Source: a virus
IMG/VR virus record: IMGVR_UViG_3300044630_002390
Coordinates: 1-63,637 of that record
Length of the DNA: 63,637 bases
Reading direction: 5' to 3' (one strand)
The translations under genes were made by a program, and so were the position numbers. The notes beneath the pieces are model-generated. The model saw only the letters and a program-made list of their open reading frames with translations, was not told the DNA's origin and did not search any database. Shown piece by piece: positions 43,840-51,365 of the stretch; positions within the stretch are counted from its first letter, which is position 1, and each line of letters begins with the position of its first letter.

Positions 43840-44964
43840 ATGTTACCAAAAGAGAATTACAGATTATATAGTCCAGCACATGGTGGAGAATTTCCAGTTG
43901 AGAAATACCTATCAGAAAAGACAGGACATTCAGTTAATTGTGTTTACTATGGTAGTGGTGTTGTGTTCGATACGAAAGTAATTGAATATTTAAAAAATAA
44001 TGGAGCAAAATCTATTTATGAAAAAAGACATTACTATGAACCTGATACATTTTCTGTTACTGAAATGTTTGAATTACAAATAGGTGAACACGTAGCGGTA
44101 ATTGGTTTTTCAAATAGAGCAGATGATGATTATCCTGGTGAAGAACCAGATGAAGAAAAAATATCAAAGTTAAAATCAGCACCTTTAAAGGGATGGATTA
44201 CTACTACATCACCTATTGATGATGTGTTCAAACGATTACCTGAACTATCAACTTTTACAAAGAAAGATATGAAAGGACAAATTCATTTATTAAAATCAAC
44301 ATCATATGGGTTTGAAACTGAAGCATTTGATTTGGGTAAACCAATAATTGATTTAGATTTAAATTACGGAACTGATTTTAGTAAGATGCATACAAATATT
44401 GTTGAAACTATTCAAGGTAAAAACGATAACAAAGCTAAATTAGTATTGTTACACGGATTGCCAGGAACAGGAAAGACAACTTATTTGAAATACTTAGCAC
44501 ATGAATTGGGAAAGAAAGTTTTATTCTTACCACCAATTATGGCAGAGAGTATTGTTAATCCAGATTTTGTTCCTTTCTTAATGGAGAACAAAGATTGTGT
44601 TTTGATTATTGAAGATGCTGAGAAAGTAATCGGAGATAGAAATAATAGTGGTAGTTCAGTTGGAGTTTCTAATCTATTGAACTTAAGTGATGGTATTTTA
44701 GGTGATATTTTAAACATACATGTAATTGCTACTTTTAATATGGATAAAGAAAAGATTGATAGTGCATTATTAAGAAAGGGTAGATTGATTGCAGAACATA
44801 AATTTGGTAAGTTAAGTTTAGAAGATACACAAACTTTACTAAAGAAATTGAATAAACAAACTGAAACAACCGAAGGATTGACATTAGCTGAGATTTATAA
44901 CATAGATAATCAGCAAGACAAATCAGAGGAAGATAGACCTACAATTGGGTTTAAAAGATATTAA
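43840..44964 (+). CDS. AAA+ ATPase of unknown target
   Basis: A 374-residue protein. Residues about 200-350 form an AAA+ module: Walker A GLPGTGKT (206-213), Walker B CVLIIEDAEKVIG, sensor 1 HVIATFNMD, and RKGRLIAEHKFGKLS with the arginine of the second region of homology. The N-terminal 195 residues (SPAHGGEFPVEKYLSEKTGH, MFELQIGEHVAVIGFSNRADD) are not recognised. The arrangement recalls BCS1- or protease-type AAA proteins rather than a clamp loader. The C-terminal tail is acidic. It is last before the RNA island. Confidence 0.75.
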   Translation: MLPKENYRLYSPAHGGEFPVEKYLSEKTGHSVNCVYYGSGVVFDTKVIEYLKNNGAKSIYEKRHYYEPDTFSVTEMFELQIGEHVAVIGFSNRADDDYPGEEPDEEKISKLKSAPLKGWITTTSPIDDVFKRLPELSTFTKKDMKGQIHLLKSTSYGFETEAFDLGKPIIDLDLNYGTDFSKMHTNIVETIQGKNDNKAKLVLLHGLPGTGKTTYLKYLAHELGKKVLFLPPIMAESIVNPDFVPFLMENKDCVLIIEDAEKVIGDRNNSGSSVGVSNLLNLSDGILGDILNIHVIATFNMDKEKIDSALLRKGRLIAEHKFGKLSLEDTQTLLKKLNKQTETTEGLTLAEIYNIDNQQDKSEEDRPTIGFKRY

Positions 44965-45014: not shown

Positions 45015-45046
45015 TTTGGTAAATTAAGATAATTGTTGTATCTTTG
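45015..45046 (+). promoter_or_regulatory. host-type promoter of the tmRNA, TTTGGTA-N-TATCTTTG
   Basis: TTTG (45015-45018) and TATCTTTG (45039-45046) are 20 bases apart; the -7 octamer is a perfect TAnnTTTG. The tmRNA 5' end is predicted 25 bases further on. Confidence 0.8.
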
Positions 45047-45070: not shown

Positions 45071-45436
45071 GGGGATGCTATGGAATTGATTGCAATGTAA
45101 ATGGTAGTACCACACGTGGAGAGAAGTGCTAGTTCTCCTTAAATCTGCACAAAACAATAACTGACGAAATGTCAACTATGACTTACGATGACCTTATGGC
45201 CTTCGTAGGTATGGATTACGCTGTAGCAGCATAACCAATCCCGTACACATCATGGGACTTTAAATAGAATGTGAAACTAAGTTTACCGAAACTTTAAATC
45301 GGTTGGTGGAAAGTTGGACTAACCATCCGACCTCAATTATTTTGGAAAGTGAATAAGATTAAACTTTATCTAAACGTGTGATATGCTGGTATTATTAGTT
45401 CTTTGTAAGACACGAGTTCGAGTCTCGTCATCTCCA
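45071..45436 (+). ncRNA. ssrA: transfer-messenger RNA (tmRNA)
   Basis: A 366-base RNA. The 5' GGGGATG pairs with 3' CATCTCC (one G-T) as an acceptor stem, discriminator A at 45436. The T arm is ACGAG, loop TTCGAGT, CTCGT. The D-like start TGGAATTGATTG is typical of tmRNA. A tag frame ends at TAA 45232-45234 and reads ...DLMAFVGMDYAVAA, close to the ANNYALAA-type degradation tags of bacteria. GGAGA/TTCTCC (45118-45138) and CCGA/TCGG arms suggest the usual helices and pseudoknots. It frees stalled ribosomes and tags incomplete proteins. No encoded CCA. The resume codon is not identified. Confidence 0.87.
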
Positions 45437-45442
45437 CAATAT

Positions 45443-45514
45443 CGCGGTGTAGAGCAGAGGTAGCTCACTAGGCTCATAACCTAGGGGTCAGTGGTTCGAA
45501 TCCGCTCACCGCAA
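45443..45514 (+). tRNA. initiator tRNA-fMet (CAT)
   Basis: Acceptor CGCGGTG with CACCGCA leaves C1-A72 unpaired, the hallmark of bacterial initiator tRNA. The anticodon loop is CTCATAA (CAT at 45475-45477), stem CTAGG/CCTAG. The T arm AGTGG/CCGCT with loop TTCGAAT is standard in form. Discriminator A, no encoded CCA. Confidence 0.9.
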
Positions 45515-45621
45515 CAAATGTTAGGGTTGAAGCCATCAAATAATAAAACCGATTGAGTGGAGCCAGACCATTAAGGAAAGGCATAAAGCCGGACACCTTA
45601 ACAAAAAAATCCCCAAAGAAA
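45515..45621 (+). other. structured spacer between initiator tRNA and the next promoter
   Basis: No tRNA or ORF. TTAAGG (45571-45576) pairs with CCTTAA (45596-45601), enclosing GGC/GCC (45580-45582 with 45588-45590). The string TGAAGCCAT recurs at 48514 in another inter-tRNA spacer. It may be a processing element of the RNA precursor. Confidence 0.4.
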
Positions 45622-45653
45622 TTTGGTAGATTGAAAAACTTAATGTATCTTTA
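45622..45653 (+). promoter_or_regulatory. host-type promoter TTTGGTA-N-TATCTTTA
   Basis: TTTG (45622-45625) and TATCTTTA (45646-45653), 20 bases apart. Predicted start near 45660, exactly at the foot of a 9-bp hairpin. Confidence 0.7.
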
Positions 45654-45659
45654 CTATAT

Positions 45660-45705
45660 AAGATTGAAACTTATAGGTGATGAAAGATACTCGGTATTCA
45701 ATCTT
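45660..45705 (+). ncRNA. candidate small hairpin RNA
   Basis: AAGATTGAA (45660-45668) pairs perfectly with TTCAATCTT (45697-45705) around a 28-base loop. It begins at the predicted transcription start of the promoter at 45622 and lies just upstream of the promoter of the large RNA. It has no T-run, so its end is unclear; it may be a separate small RNA or the 5' part of a longer one. Confidence 0.45.
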
Positions 45706-45728: not shown

Positions 45729-45760
45729 TTTGGTAAATTTAATGTTTTAATTTATATTTA
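45729..45760 (+). promoter_or_regulatory. host-type promoter of the large RNA, TTTGGTA-N-TATATTTA
   Basis: TTTG (45729-45732) and TATATTTA (45753-45760) are 20 bases apart. No ORF of meaningful length follows before the terminator at 46924. Confidence 0.75.
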
Positions 45761-45766
45761 CATATA

Positions 45767-46957
45767 TATAACAACAAAGAAGTTCTTTAAATTATTAAAA
45801 ATATTCTATATAGTAACCTTGTGTTACATAATAGCTACCGGCCGCATATGGTCGTTAAATAAACTACGAAAGTAGGATAAAGTGGGTGTATTAAGTGATA
45901 CGCCGGCGGCTCCTTCCCCGTAAGGGAGAATAGCTTAAGTATGCAAGTGGGATATTATTTAGGCTTTGTAAGTGGGGGTAACACTACCATTGAAGAGTTT
46001 GAGTAACTAGGGTATTGTAGATACTTTAGTTGAGGTGGGAACACCAATAAGAATAACCCATAGAATATCAGTAAGAAGTGTAGACTTAATCCCTCTACAT
46101 AATTGCGGTATTCATTATTAGAGTGGTCTTAACATCAAACTATACGAAAGGTAGTAAGATAAGACTGTGTACAGGTGGTGCTGTTACTATCCTTTTATAA
46201 ATCGTACCAACGATTATAAATGAAGATGACTCAAAATAACGCAGTAGGGATATTGCATCGAGTAGTATAGTATTTCGTTGTTCAAAAGATAACGGAGCTG
46301 GTGGCAAACCACTACTTGAATCATTCTACAAAACTAAAACTCAATTTTTTATTTCGGTATAAAAAACTACAATTAAAAATTAAGCTTAAGTGTTTGCCAG
46401 TTATAGACGAAAGGTGTGTACATAGTTAAGAGTTGTTCTTAGCCACGATACTTCCGCAAGAAGTCTGTGATTCTTTCGAAAAACTTCTAATCCCGCAAGG
46501 ATTAATTAGGCTGATAGGTTTAAAGAAGCGTAGTAAAAAGAGAGTAGTTTATAACTCAAAGATTGGTTGACTCAATTAACCCACATTGAATTGGTACTAC
46601 TCAAAAGGTGGTGGAAACGGAAGGAACTAATAATCTTTCTAAAGCTGGTTCTCAATATGGAGTATTCTCATCCCTATTTTATTTTATCATAATGGTTAGA
46701 GTTGGTTCGATTCCAATAATGATAGCAAAGTAATTTATCGAGGCTTGTATTAACCGGAGCATGACTTGACGTGGCGTATTTTGAAGATTGATTACTTTTT
46801 TAATTCGATTATAGTTATAACAAATGAAAGCATTAACATTACATACACTTTGTAGCACACCGAATCAGATTTGGGGTGGCAGAGATATGTAAAGTTAGGC
46901 TAGATTTATATTAAGAATTTTAGAAAACCCTGACTTTAATTAGTTGGGGTTTTTTGT
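45767..46957 (+). ncRNA. large structured non-coding RNA candidate (GOLLD/ROOL-like)
   Basis: About 1.19 kb between a host-type promoter and a 12-bp terminator, free of ORFs of 60 codons or more on either strand. Many compact hairpins are readable: CTAC-GAAA-GTAG (45864-45875), CCC-GTAA-GGG (45917-45926) and GGTG-GGAA-CACC (46034-46045), all GNRA loops; CGGCC/GGTCG (45839-45854); TTATAA-ATCGT/ACGAT-TATAA (46195-46219); GTGG/CCAC (46301-46312); CTTC/GAAG (46451-46463); TAATCC/GGATTA (46488-46504); and a tRNA-like T arm (46702-46716). Giant GOLLD and ROOL RNAs sit beside phage tRNA genes in the same way. Class membership is a hypothesis; a group I intron remnant is less likely because no exon flanks it. 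Confidence 0.65.
46924..46957 (+). terminator. intrinsic terminator of the large RNA
   Basis: A continuous 12-bp stem (AAAACCCTGACT with AGTTGGGGTTTT, two wobble pairs) closes the loop TTAATT and runs into T6. The next tRNA begins five bases later. Confidence 0.88.
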
Positions 46958-47125: not shown

Positions 47126-47204
47126 AAACGGTTACCAATCCGGAACACGCCTGGAAGTTTAGTGTATTAGCACACCGGGAAATGGTGATAACAAAATTGG
47201 AAAT

Positions 47205-47277
47205 TGTCGGATGGTGTAATTGGTCAGCACAATAGATTTTGATTCTATTAGTTTTGGTTCGAGTCCAGGTCCGATAA
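47205..47277 (+). tRNA. tRNA-Gln (TTG)
   Basis: Acceptor TGTCGGA/TCCGATA with one G-T; D stem GTGT/GCAC; anticodon stem ATAGA/TCTAT, loop TTTTGAT (TTG at 47239-47241); T loop TTCGAGT; discriminator A. Confidence 0.87.
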
Positions 47278-47282
47278 CAAAA

Positions 47283-47356
47283 TGGGAATTAGCGTAGTCC
47301 GGTATCGCGCTAGCTTTGGGAGCTAGAGGCCGTAGGTTCGAATCCTGCATTCCCAA
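47283..47356 (+). tRNA. tRNA-Pro (TGG)
   Basis: Acceptor TGGGAAT/ATTCCCA; anticodon stem CTAGC/GCTAG, loop TTTGGGA (TGG at 47317-47319); T loop TTCGAAT; discriminator A. Confidence 0.9.
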
Positions 47357-47361
47357 CATAT

Positions 47362-47434
47362 AGGAATATAACTCAGCTGGTAGAGTGCTAATCTGATACG
47401 TTAGATGTCACAAGTTCGAATCTTGTTATTCCTA
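47362..47434 (+). tRNA. tRNA-Ile (GAT)
   Basis: Acceptor AGGAATA/TATTCCT; D stem ACTC/GAGT; anticodon stem CTAAT/GTTAG, loop CTGATAC (GAT); T arm ACAAG/CTTGT with loop TTCGAAT; discriminator A. Confidence 0.9.
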
Positions 47435-47440
47435 CACACA

Positions 47441-47511
47441 TCCGGTTTGGTGCAATGGTAGCATGTAGGTCTCCAAAACCTTTGATTACAGTTCGAGTCT
47501 GTAAACCGGTG
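47441..47511 (+). tRNA. tRNA-Trp (CCA)
   Basis: Acceptor TCCGGTT/AACCGGT with T1-T72 mismatch; anticodon loop CTCCAAA (CCA at 47473-47475); T arm TACAG/CTGTA, loop TTCGAGT; discriminator G as expected for bacterial tRNA-Trp. Confidence 0.87.
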
Positions 47512-47516
47512 CAAAT

Positions 47517-47589
47517 AGTTTCATAGTGAAATGGATTATCACACAACACTACGAATGTTGGATTGTGGGTTCGAATCCTACTGAAACTA
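47517..47589 (+). tRNA. tRNA-Arg (ACG)
   Basis: Acceptor AGTTTCA/TGAAACT; anticodon stem CAACA/TGTTG, loop CTACGAA (ACG at 47551-47553), where A34 is normally changed to inosine by TadA; T loop TTCGAAT; discriminator A. Confidence 0.9.
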
Positions 47590-47595
47590 CAATAA

Positions 47596-47666
47596 GGTGA
47601 GTTGTCCGAGTGGCTAGGGGGAGGTCTGCAAAACCTCTTACATTGGTTCGAATCCAATACACACCT
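47596..47666 (+). tRNA. tRNA-Cys (GCA)
   Basis: Acceptor GGTGAGT/ACACACC with an A-A mismatch; anticodon stem GAGGT/ACCTC, loop CTGCAAA (GCA at 47628-47630); T arm ATTGG/CCAAT; discriminator T, the identity base of tRNA-Cys. Confidence 0.87.
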
Positions 47667-47673
47667 CGAAAAT

Positions 47674-47745
47674 GTTGAGCGTAGCCTAATGGTAGGGCAA
47701 AAGTTTGTGGCACTTTGTGTGTGGGTTCGATTCCCATCGTTCAAC
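47674..47745 (+). tRNA. tRNA-His (GTG) with G-1:C73
   Basis: Begins with the extra G typical of tRNA-His, pairing with C at 47745. Acceptor TTGAGCG/CGTTCAA; anticodon stem AAAGT/ACTTT, loop TTGTGGC (GTG at 47707-47709); T loop TTCGATT. Confidence 0.88.
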
Positions 47746-47750
47746 CAATC

Positions 47751-47835
47751 GGAAAGATGGGTGAGGGATTTAAACCAGCAGTTTACTAAACTGCCGACTG
47801 TTAAAGGTCCGTGAGTTCGAATCTCACTCTTTCCG
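47751..47835 (+). tRNA. tRNA-Ser, anticodon ACT
   Basis: Class II tRNA: acceptor GGAAAGA/TCTTTCC, D region GGGTGAGGGATTTAAACC, anticodon stem GCAGT/ACTGC, loop TTACTAA (ACT at 47785-47787), variable arm GAC/GTC, T loop TTCGAAT, discriminator G. It looks like the usual tRNA-Ser(GCT) with G34 changed to A. Confidence 0.85.
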
Positions 47836-47842
47836 CATAAAT

Positions 47843-47917
47843 ACCGGTATGGCGGAATTGGCATACGCAGTGGTCTTAGAAGCCATACAATTATAGGTTC
47901 GAATCCTATTACCGGTA
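47843..47917 (+). tRNA. tRNA-Leu (TAG), short variable arm
   Basis: Acceptor ACCGGTA/TACCGGT; D region GCGGAATTGGCATACGC as in tRNA-Leu; anticodon loop CTTAGAA (TAG at 47877-47879); T loop TTCGAAT; discriminator A. Only six bases (ACAATT) stand between anticodon and T stems, whereas leucine tRNAs normally carry a long variable arm. Confidence 0.83.
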
Positions 47918-47975
47918 CAAAATGTACTTTTTTTCGATTTTATCAAAAGTCCCAAAATTTTTTTGAGGGAAATTT

Positions 47976-48007
47976 TTTGGTATATAGGAAAAATTAGTGT
48001 ATCTTTA
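47976..48007 (+). promoter_or_regulatory. host-type promoter TTTGGTA-N-TATCTTTA inside the tRNA cluster
   Basis: TTTG (47976-47979) and TATCTTTA (48000-48007), 20 bases apart. It would restart transcription for the second half of the tRNA cluster. Confidence 0.75.
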
Positions 48008-48013
48008 AGATAT

Positions 48014-48125
48014 AAGGTTGATTGGGAAACTAAATAGGAAACTATGGCGTGAGGAGGGTAAAATCCAAAGTAATGCCAATCATAAAAGTAGTCGTCCACG
48101 CACCCATCTTCTACTTTCCTTAAAT
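48014..48125 (+). ncRNA. structured RNA segment upstream of tRNA-Glu
   Basis: No ORF or tRNA in 112 bases after the promoter. TGATTGG (near 48022) can pair with CCAATCA (near 48075), GCGT with ACGC, and AAAGTAG with CTACTTT (near 48086 and 48112). It may be a separate small RNA or a processed leader. Confidence 0.4.
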
Positions 48126-48197
48126 GCTCAGTTCGACTAAGGGTTAGGTCACATCCCTTTCACGGATGTAATACGGGTTCGAATCCCGTACTGAGTA
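48126..48197 (+). tRNA. tRNA-Glu (TTC)
   Basis: Acceptor GCTCAGT/ACTGAGT with G1-T72; D stem GACT/GGTC; anticodon stem CATCC/GGATG, loop CTTTCAC (TTC at 48159-48161); T arm ACGGG/CCCGT; discriminator A. Confidence 0.88.
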
Positions 48198-48202
48198 CAA
48201 TA

Positions 48203-48275
48203 GCCCGAGTAGCTCAGCTGGTAGAGCAACTGATTTGTAATCAGTAGGTCGTAAGTTCGATTCTTATCTTGGGCT
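48203..48275 (+). tRNA. tRNA-Thr (TGT)
   Basis: Acceptor GCCCGAG/CTTGGGC; anticodon stem ACTGA/TCAGT, loop TTTGTAA (TGT at 48236-48238); T arm GTAAG/CTTAT, loop TTCGATT; discriminator T. Confidence 0.9.
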
Positions 48276-48349
48276 CAAAAAGTTCCGAGCTTTGCAAGGC
48301 TAAAGTAATGATGTACACATTACACGATAGGAAGGGAAACCTATCAAAA
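48276..48349 (+). other. spacer with consecutive hairpins
   Basis: No tRNA. GTAATG/CATTAC (perfect, loop ATGTACA) and GATAGG/CCTATC (perfect) stand in a row, preceded by AGC/GCT. None has a T-run, so they are more like processing or small-RNA elements than terminators. Confidence 0.4.
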
Positions 48350-48423
48350 GGAGTGGTAGTTCAGTTGGTTAGAATGCTGCCCTGTCACGGCAGAGGTCGC
48401 GGGTTCGAATCCCGTCCACTCCG
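48350..48423 (+). tRNA. tRNA-Asp (GTC)
   Basis: Acceptor GGAGTGG/CCACTCC; anticodon stem CTGCC/GGCAG, loop CTGTCAC (GTC at 48384-48386); T loop TTCGAAT; discriminator G, as usual for Asp. Confidence 0.92.
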
Positions 48424-48428
48424 CAATC

Positions 48429-48500
48429 GGTCTGTTAGTTAAATGGATATAACTTCTCACTTCTAATGAGATGTTCGTGGTTCGATTCCACGACGGACTA
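48429..48500 (+). tRNA. tRNA-Arg (TCT)
   Basis: Acceptor GGTCTGT/ACGGACT with two G-T pairs; D stem GTTA/TAAC; anticodon stem TCTCA/TGAGA, loop CTTCTAA (TCT at 48462-48464); T arm CGTGG/CCACG; discriminator A. It reads AGA/AGG, the frequent arginine codons of this A/T-rich genome. Confidence 0.88.
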
Positions 48501-48552
48501 CGTGGGTTTCGGTGATGAAGCCATAAAGAGAGATAGATGTTTCTCATTCACT

Positions 48553-48589
48553 AAAATAGGTAGGTGATTCCACACCTGCTTATTTTTTT
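48553..48589 (+). terminator. intrinsic terminator inside the tRNA cluster
   Basis: A 12-bp stem (AATAGGTAGGTG with CACCTGCTTATT, two wobble pairs) closes the loop ATTCCA, followed by a T-run. The next tRNA starts four bases later. Confidence 0.8.
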
Positions 48590-48592
48590 ATT

Positions 48593-48666
48593 GGGAATGT
48601 AGCTCAGTTGGTTAGAGCAAATGACTCATAATCATTAGGTCTTTGGTTCGAACCCAGACTTTCCCA
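48593..48666 (+). tRNA. tRNA-Met elongator or tRNA-Ile2 (CAT)
   Basis: Acceptor GGGAATG/CTTTCCC with one T-T mismatch; D stem GCTC/GAGC; anticodon stem AATGA/TCATT, loop CTCATAA (CAT); T loop TTCGAAC; discriminator A. Fully paired 1-72, so not an initiator. Whether the C34 is changed to lysidine (Ile2) cannot be told here. Confidence 0.85.
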
Positions 48667-48673
48667 CAAAGTA

Positions 48674-48705
48674 TTTGGTAAATAAATTTATTTTTTGTAT
48701 ATTTA
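48674..48705 (+). promoter_or_regulatory. host-type promoter TTTGGTA-N-TATATTTA
   Basis: TTTG (48674-48677) and TATATTTA (48698-48705), 20 bases apart. The ATG of the next small gene begins seven bases after the box. Confidence 0.75.
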
Positions 48706-48712
48706 AGATACA

Positions 48713-48868
48713 ATGGAAATTACAAAAGAAAATATTAGTAAATTAATTGGAAAAGAAGTTTCCGGTTATGTCTATACAAAAGATAAAAAGACTGGGGTAA
48801 CAATTATTAAAGTAAATCCATCTATAAAAGAAGAATCTATAAAAATTAAAATAAAAATTAAAAATTAA
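48713..48868 (+). CDS. small basic protein of unknown function
   Basis: A 51-residue ORF: MEITKENISKLIGKEVSGYV, YTKDKKTGVTIIKVNPSIK, ending in an alternating Ile/Lys strand (IKIKIKIKN). Supported by its own promoter seven bases upstream and by a further ORF six bases downstream. No family is recognised; the strand-rich pattern suggests a small beta protein. Confidence 0.6.
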   Translation: MEITKENISKLIGKEVSGYVYTKDKKTGVTIIKVNPSIKEESIKIKIKIKN

Positions 48869-48873
48869 AAGTT

Positions 48874-49131
48874 ATGTTTTGGACCTATTACGCAATTTGT
48901 GTTATTTATTGTTTCTATCAACTATTCACAAAATATCAAGAAAGATATAATGATGGTATGATTGGATTATCACCGGGATTGGATGCAATTATGGTAGTGA
49001 TTATGGCTTGGATTCTTGCACCTGTTGATGTATCTTTAACTTGGATTCGTTGGTATAAAGATGCAGAGGAAGCAAGAAGAAATCAAAGTAAATTTGATAT
49101 TAAAATAGATAAAGACGATAATATATTTTAA
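48874..49131 (+). CDS. small membrane protein
   Basis: An 85-residue protein. One hydrophobic helix at residues about 2-18 (FWTYYAICVIYCFYQLF) and a second at about 36-57 (GLDAIMVVIMAWILAPVDVSL), then a charged tail (WYKDAEEARRNQSKFDIKIDKDD). It probably sits in the inner membrane with the tail in the cytoplasm. No family is recognised. Only eight bases separate it from tRNA-Ser. Confidence 0.65.
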   Translation: MFWTYYAICVIYCFYQLFTKYQERYNDGMIGLSPGLDAIMVVIMAWILAPVDVSLTWIRWYKDAEEARRNQSKFDIKIDKDDNIF

Positions 49132-49139
49132 TATTAAAG

Positions 49140-49224
49140 AGAGAGTTGGCCGAGTGGTTGATGGCACCAGTCTTGAAAACTGGCAAGTGTAACAGCTTCT
49201 GGGGTTCGAATCCCTAACTCTCTG
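49140..49224 (+). tRNA. tRNA-Ser (TGA)
   Basis: Class II: acceptor AGAGAGT/ACTCTCT; anticodon stem CCAGT/ACTGG, loop CTTGAAA (TGA at 49174-49176); long variable region; T loop TTCGAAT; discriminator G. Confidence 0.92.
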
Positions 49225-49236
49225 CAAAAATAAAAT

Positions 49237-50271: not shown

Positions 50272-50838
50272 ATGAGTATGAGAATTAAATTATTTGTTGC
50301 ATTACCAAGTGAATTTCCAAAAGAAAAAGCACCTTTAGGAGTAGATGTTATTTATACCGGAGTTGGTAAAATAAATGCAGCAATTAAAGCAACTGAAATA
50401 CTTAAGGAATTATCACCATCAGAAACCATAGTTATTAATTATGGAAGTGCAGGTGGGCATATTAGTATGATAAATAATTTGTTCAAATGTAAAAATTTTG
50501 TACAAAGAGATATGGATGCCAGACCATTTGCTAAAAAAACAATTACTCCATTTGATGAAGTTGTTTGGAATAAATTACATTTAGTAAATGATTCTATTGA
50601 TTTTAATGGATTAGGATACCATACATGTCATACACAAGATCGGTTTGAACAATCACCGAATAGAATTTCCGATATGGAAGCATATTCAATAGCAAAAGTA
50701 TGTAAAATTTACGGATTTGATTTTACAGCATATAAATTTATATCAGATGATGGTAATCATGAGGATTGGACAAAAAATCACAATAAAGGAATTGAACTAT
50801 TTTTACAACAATTAAAAGATGATTTTAAAATATCGTGA
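50272..50838 (+). CDS. nucleosidase of the MTA/SAH type
   Basis: A 188-residue protein of the purine nucleosidase superfamily: LFVALPSEFP at the start, YTGVGKINAAIKATEIL, TIVINYGSAGGH, the base-binding block SDMEAYSIAKVC (Met-Glu for ribose), and FISDDGNHEDW with the catalytic Asp. It would split methylthioadenosine or S-adenosylhomocysteine, the by-product of the two methyltransferases in this window. It is shorter than E. coli Mtn (232), so specificity may differ. Two ATGs (50272 and 50278) are possible. Confidence 0.7.
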   Translation: MSMRIKLFVALPSEFPKEKAPLGVDVIYTGVGKINAAIKATEILKELSPSETIVINYGSAGGHISMINNLFKCKNFVQRDMDARPFAKKTITPFDEVVWNKLHLVNDSIDFNGLGYHTCHTQDRFEQSPNRISDMEAYSIAKVCKIYGFDFTAYKFISDDGNHEDWTKNHNKGIELFLQQLKDDFKIS

Positions 50839-51365
50839 TAAAATTAAAAAAATTATTAAAAGAGATAGAAAGTGGCCCTTATGAATATGGGTGTGTAATG
50901 TTATATTTTGATTTTGAAGAAACTTTTATAACAAAAGCAATATCCGATTCTGATTTATATGATGATGGTAGTGGTAAGTATGGAAAAGAAACTGAACCAC
51001 ATGTAACCCTATTGTATGGGTTACATTCTAATGTCACTCCACAAATTATTCAACAAATCTTAGATACAATTCATTTTGGAGATATAACTTTAAATAATAT
51101 TTCTTATTTCACTAATGCAGATTATGATGTATTAAAGATGGATGCAAGTGGTGACGGGTTAGAAAAAGCTCACGCAATTTTAAGTAAATTACCAAACTCA
51201 AATGAGTATGATGAATACTATCCACATATGACAATTGCATATTTACAAAAAAATAAGTGGCAAAAATATATTCCAAAATTACAAAGTTTCACAACAACGG
51301 TAACACCACTATTCGCAATTTATTCAGTTCCGAGTGGTAAAAAATACAAATTAAAGATAAAATAA
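50835..51365 (+). CDS. 2H phosphoesterase with capsid-targeting-like leader
   Basis: A 176-residue protein starting at GTG 50835, overlapping the nucleosidase stop. Two H-x-T motifs, P55-H56-V-T58 and P130-H131-M-T133, define the 2H phosphoesterase (2'-5' RNA ligase-like) fold. Relatives in phages cut 2',3'-cyclic bonds or cyclic oligonucleotides used by antiviral systems such as CBASS; this is family knowledge, not shown here. The start MIKLKKLLKE matches the leader of proteins at 31681 and 32006, so it may be packaged and injected. Confidence 0.7.
   Translation: MIKLKKLLKEIESGPYEYGCVMLYFDFEETFITKAISDSDLYDDGSGKYGKETEPHVTLLYGLHSNVTPQIIQQILDTIHFGDITLNNISYFTNADYDVLKMDASGDGLEKAHAILSKLPNSNEYDEYYPHMTIAYLQKNKWQKYIPKLQSFTTTVTPLFAIYSVPSGKKYKLKIK

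Follow-up and report, generated by a model that had tools for sequence, protein, structure and literature searches.

Copies of tmRNA, the RNA that rescues stalled ribosomes, are carried by some phages and are usually seen there as aids to host ribosome rescue. What a phage gains from the peptide tag that such an RNA encodes is the question raised by a locus in a 63,637-base virus record (IMG/VR IMGVR_UViG_3300044630_002390; the whole of this stretch is called the window below). The window encodes a tail sheath protein, a tail tube, a RecA-like protein, a DnaB-like helicase, a clamp loader and a family B DNA polymerase whose closest named relative, 51% identical, is that of Microcystis phage Mel-JY01; judged by these genes it is therefore a fragment of a T4-like myophage. 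Its host is probably a member of the Bacteroidota, as indicated by the promoter type and the resemblance of the tag to tags of that phylum. We also note a 2'-5' RNA ligase/2H phosphoesterase protein (50835-51365) that weakly resembles anti-CBASS Acb1 (E 2e-5, under the Pfam cut-off).

A one-piece tmRNA gene and its neighbours

ARAGORN places a tmRNA with the tag DEMSTMTYDDLMAFVGMDYAVAA at 45071-45437 on the forward strand, and model positions 1-374 of Rfam family RF00023 align to 45071-45439 (85.8 bits, E 7.5e-32), above the family's gathering score of 47. The two agree with the initial annotation, which had proposed a phage-encoded tmRNA with all of its parts readable; the acceptor strands, the T arm and the tag stop lie where it had put them. 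The features of the region are:

45015..45046, + strand: putative Bacteroidota-type promoter, with -33 element TTTG at 45015-45018, a 20-nt spacer and -7 element TATCTTTG at 45039-45046 (sequence; relatives)
45071..45436, + strand: one-piece tmRNA gene, discriminator A at 45436 (ARAGORN, Rfam RF00023, covariation)
45071..45077, + strand: 5' acceptor strand GGGGATG, with its partner CATCTCC at 45429-45435 (sequence; paired in 101 of 101 relatives)
45118..45150, + strand: pseudoknot PK1, S1 45118-45123/45133-45138 and S2 45126-45129/45147-45150 (stems covary)
45163..45234, + strand: tag reading frame DEMSTMTYDDLMAFVGMDYAVAA-stop, resume codon GAC (ARAGORN; relatives' tags; peptide-level selection)
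45166..45213, + strand: phage-specific extension of the tag, EMSTMTYDDLMAFVGM, flanked by the resume Asp and the host-like end DYAVAA (conservation, selection, no bacterial match)
45412..45428, + strand: T arm ACGAG-TTCGAGT-CTCGT (sequence; T stem paired in 101 of 101 relatives, with compensatory changes)
45443..45515, + strand: tRNA-Met (CAT), first of 18 tRNAs, 6 nt after the tmRNA (ARAGORN)
46258..46674, + strand: conserved 3' domain of GOLLD RNA, 276.8 bits (Rfam)

The 7-bp acceptor stem and the 5-bp T stem are fully paired in all 101 distinct relatives, and compensatory base changes are present at acceptor pairs 4-7 and along the entire T stem. PK1 is likewise present in all 101, with both stems covarying, and in 66 of them 11-12 nt separate its end from the resume codon (12 nt in the window). 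Alanyl-tRNA synthetase charges tmRNA through the G3.U70 pair; this pair is G45073.U45433 in the window tmRNA and is invariant among the 101 relatives. CCA is not encoded, as CAA comes after discriminator A45436. Because the relatives keep the paired stems and G3.U70, and because the tag frame is selected as a peptide (below), the window tmRNA is not a chance resemblance.

The element upstream of the gene has the form TTTG-N20-TAnnTTTG, which we take to be the Bacteroidota promoter type. The same element stands upstream of many relatives' tmRNAs (often as TAnnTTTA rather than TAnnTTTG), in agreement with the host-type promoter that had been proposed from the window. Near-identical promoter-like elements, TTTG-N20-TAnnTTT[GA], occur three times within 750 bases (45015-45046, 45622-45653 and 45729-45760), and they precede, in this order, the tmRNA, the stretch that follows tRNA-Met, and GOLLD.

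The tmRNA heads an array of 18 tRNAs (ARAGORN) that reaches 49225. GOLLD, which probably begins near 45760, lies between the tmRNA and the tRNA block. Of 13 large relatives 9 have it, in most cases on the tmRNA strand and some 1-1.5 kb past the tmRNA, and so by its position in these contigs it is a frequent tmRNA neighbour; GOLLD is known to form a 14-mer RNA cage and to lie near tRNA islands (PMC12286853). The stretch between tRNA-Met and GOLLD (45520-45700) has no long frame and no Rfam match at gathering score, and may be another RNA. The minus-strand frames at 47159-49227 lie opposite the tRNA array and contain GNRTHTQ, GIEPTHK and the like; they are spurious ORFs of the kind commonly read antisense to tRNA genes.

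The tag, its spread and its exchange

The window tag has 23 residues (24 with the added Ala). A scan of IMG/VR gave at least 234 viral contigs with the long-tag form E[LMK]ST[MWF]T[FY][DE]D..M..FVGADYA[VL]AA, and a wider motif was confirmed in 219 viral contigs there, the two sets overlapping. The 44 distinct tags read by ARAGORN begin E[LMK]ST[MWF]T[FY] and usually continue [DE]D[LAV]M[AS]FVGADYA[VL]AA. Among 61 distinct 22-codon cores of the tag frame, pS is 0.47 and pN 0.12, a pN/pS of 0.26 that is descriptive, since pairs of related sequences are not independent. Synonymous sites are near saturation in this frame, the other two frames have no such pattern, and E, S, T, T, M, F, D and A never change at their respective positions in the 61 distinct coding sequences. 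The peptide has thus been preserved while its codons changed, and we therefore conclude from these comparisons that the tag is kept as a peptide along its entire length. The earlier proposal that the tmRNA carries a tag of its own, whose frame should recur in related phages, is borne out.

The initial annotation had singled out the AVAA ending as unusual, and here we differ from it: the relatives end AVAA, ALAA or AIAA, host tags end ALAA, AMAA or RLAA, and the terminal Ala-Ala is retained in the phage tag. By these alignments the notable part of the tag is its first 17 residues, not the AVAA ending. In the extension, a Thr-x-x-Asp/Glu capping box with an almost invariant Gly after it suggests a short helix; an amphipathic helix was considered and rejected, as the moment of the window tag is not significant (30% of shuffles are as high). 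Three tags (L005, L006 and L007) end DLAIA, one residue shorter and without Ala-Ala, and a weaker ClpXP signal is expected of them.

Bacterial tags differ. A search for the tag motif in 84,980 bacterial and archaeal species genomes gave 12 raw matches, none of which was confirmed as a tag (about 16 chance matches are expected by a rough estimate), and a tag profile run against 395 Bacteroidota genomes found no tag, only one weak match within a 1062-aa frame. None of 60 evenly sampled Bacteroidota tmRNAs has the long tag; where readable, their tags are 9-10 residues long (ADDYSYAMAA, GENNYALAA and DNNYSYRLAA, for example; three of the 60 calls look like wrong frames). The host type is thus a short tag with a Y/F-A-x-A-A end, and at 23 residues the phage tag falls outside its length. 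Conversely, host-like tags of the GExNYALAA type are present in only 12 viral contigs. Within the searched collections the long tag is, by these matches, restricted to phages. Its being more than twice the host length, strongly conserved and found in no searched bacterial genome suggests that these phages have changed the mark that the cell puts on unfinished proteins. No INPHARED record of a cultured phage has the tag, and we found no description of the family in the open-access literature. Other long tags of unrelated sequence, 22-33 residues by ARAGORN with provisional frames, were seen among viral tmRNAs sampled through their 3' ends (L168, L203, L209, L212, L214 and L222), and long tags may be common in phages.

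When phages were retrieved by the AAA+ gene upstream of the tmRNA instead of by the tag, most proved to have the long tag. Two in this set, L019 and L021, have the short host-like tag GEFNYAIAA (read by hand, ARAGORN's tags there being wrong frames), and a third contig has GEYNYAIAA. Phage L021 and its long-tag sister L020 are 98% identical in the promoter, 72-76% at the ends of the tmRNA and 93% in a common insert, but only 39% identical from the tag through the next pseudoknots. Since the same promoter and backbone carry either a long or a short tag, the tag region has, on this sequence evidence, been replaced on a common backbone, and tag cassettes are exchanged among these phages. The insert, about 90 nt long and >90% identical among the tmRNAs of L020, L021, L023 and L025 (columns 317-405 of alignment A4), occurs with both tag lengths and is absent from L019; it is possibly mobile.

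What the extension may do

We regard the locus as a functional tmRNA from a T4-like phage that infects Bacteroidota; it would use host SmpB, and its tag would combine a ClpXP-readable end with an added phage-specific binding segment. We give this reading a probability of about 0.7. The tmRNA would be transcribed from the host-type promoter, and host enzymes would mature the RNA and add its CCA; charged with alanine through G3.U70, it would be brought to stalled ribosomes by host SmpB. SmpB is encoded by none of the 13 large relatives (contigs of 115-238 kb that are themselves fragments), from which we infer that host SmpB, AlaRS and EF-Tu serve it. Translation would resume at GAC, so that Ala plus 23 residues are appended to the stalled product. 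The DYAVAA end, a host-type degron with an Ala-Ala terminus, should be readable by host ClpX; terminal Ala-Ala is the strongest ClpX-read part of the E. coli degron (PMC7652416). As EMSTMTYDDLMAFVGM is conserved though unneeded for the reading of DYAVAA by ClpX, it would make a second contact: a determinant of the phage's own, in all likelihood a short binding element, by which tagged products gain an extra handle. With such a handle, a protease could capture the products faster or in preference to others, or they could be routed to a partner blind to host tags. A more far-reaching version, which we offer tentatively and with the odds somewhat against it, is that the phages have put in place of the host proteolysis tag one that carries an extra signal of its own, for a phage- or host-encoded partner blind to host tags, so that rescued proteins in the infected cell meet a different fate and tag cassettes are traded as hosts or defences change.

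Three candidate partners were considered and rejected. SspB is the adaptor that binds E. coli tags; as a reader of the extension it was sought in 61 Bacteroidota genomes and 14 phage records and found in none. Phage ClpP fares little better, ClpP-family proteins being present in only 2 of the 14 phage records; those of the two tag-bearing records (L528-L530, in G005 and G013) may serve as proteases in head maturation. The AAA+ protein encoded upstream of the tmRNA (43840-44964) accompanies only 3 of 160 tag-bearing loci, many of which have short flanks, and so is no general partner of the tag.

The strongest competing account, though an unlikely one, is that the extension protects tagged phage products or re-routes them, letting them escape ClpXP or reach another protease. 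The phage-only distribution of the tag, the altered ends DLAIA (L005-L007) and AVSA (L196), and the ClpP-family proteins just mentioned would fit, but nearly all tags retain the host-like Ala-Ala end and no common phage protease or adaptor was found. Slightly less probable still is an ordinary degron lengthened just to fill the ClpX channel, its sequence having no separate message. ClpX does engage degrons of about 5 and about 20 residues differently (PMC7652416), and the tag with its added Ala is 24 residues long; length alone, however, does not predict residues fixed in 61 coding sequences whose synonymous sites are near saturation. We think it very improbable that the tmRNA is a decoy that titrates SmpB without completing rescue, as was proposed for the TLD-only RNA of phage DS6A (PMC4131195). 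That precedent and the lack of SmpB in the 13 large phage contigs speak for a decoy, which would need neither a selected tag frame nor PK1, yet both are conserved. Finally, a small free-standing protein that happens to sit in the tmRNA is scarcely credible: the frame has several ATG codons, but the one at tag position 3 is missing in E[LK] tags, that of STM gives way to W or F in relatives, the start of the frame keeps a fixed spacing to PK1 and AATAA, and the frame has a tag-like end.

If the locus is, as we prefer, a working tmRNA with an added binding segment, then the phage would gain from the fate of the tagged protein, beyond the release of the ribosome, because the tag is more than twice the host length, selected as a peptide, confined to phages in our searches and swapped with a host-like tag. 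The long tag, the short tag and a linker placed on one backbone would make a clean test of why phages carry tmRNA, and the long tag may prove useful in Bacteroidota as a new degron or binding peptide.

Relation to known tmRNAs

Phage tmRNA as such is already known, and what stands out here is the long conserved tag. In a published survey, 402 of 18,146 phage genomes had a tmRNA (PMC9004378), so that of the initial annotation's description of phage tmRNAs as known but rare the first part stands and the second is relative. Huge phages also have tmRNA and may have SmpB with it (PMC7162821). The mycobacteriophages of the Bxz1 group and Wildcat, and Bacillus phage G, encode tmRNA as the window phage does (PMC4131195), and in Wildcat it is the most highly expressed lytic gene (PMC7474061); their host phyla differ from the probable one of the window phage, and the likeness lies in the presence of the gene, not in the tags (a putative Bxz1 tag gave no match). 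Methylophage Melnitz and pelagiphage Mosig are, like the window phage, T4-like aquatic phages with a tmRNA, but theirs is permuted, two-piece, riboswitch-linked and of alphaproteobacterial type, whereas the window tmRNA is in one piece (PMC9004378).

The one-piece ssrA RNA of the Bacteroidota (RF00023) shares with the phage gene the G3.U70 tRNA-like domain, PK1, the resume codon and the A-x-A-A end, and some of its tags also begin with Asp (DNNYSYRLAA); its tags have 9-10 residues as against 23, and the STMTF..LM segment is in no sampled bacterial tmRNA. Also close are the short-tag tmRNAs of L019 and L021, which resemble the window in the promoter, the tRNA-like domain, the 3' half and the AAA+ gene upstream (and, in L019, GOLLD downstream), and which differ from it in that the tag and the adjoining pseudoknots have been replaced and the tag is of host type.
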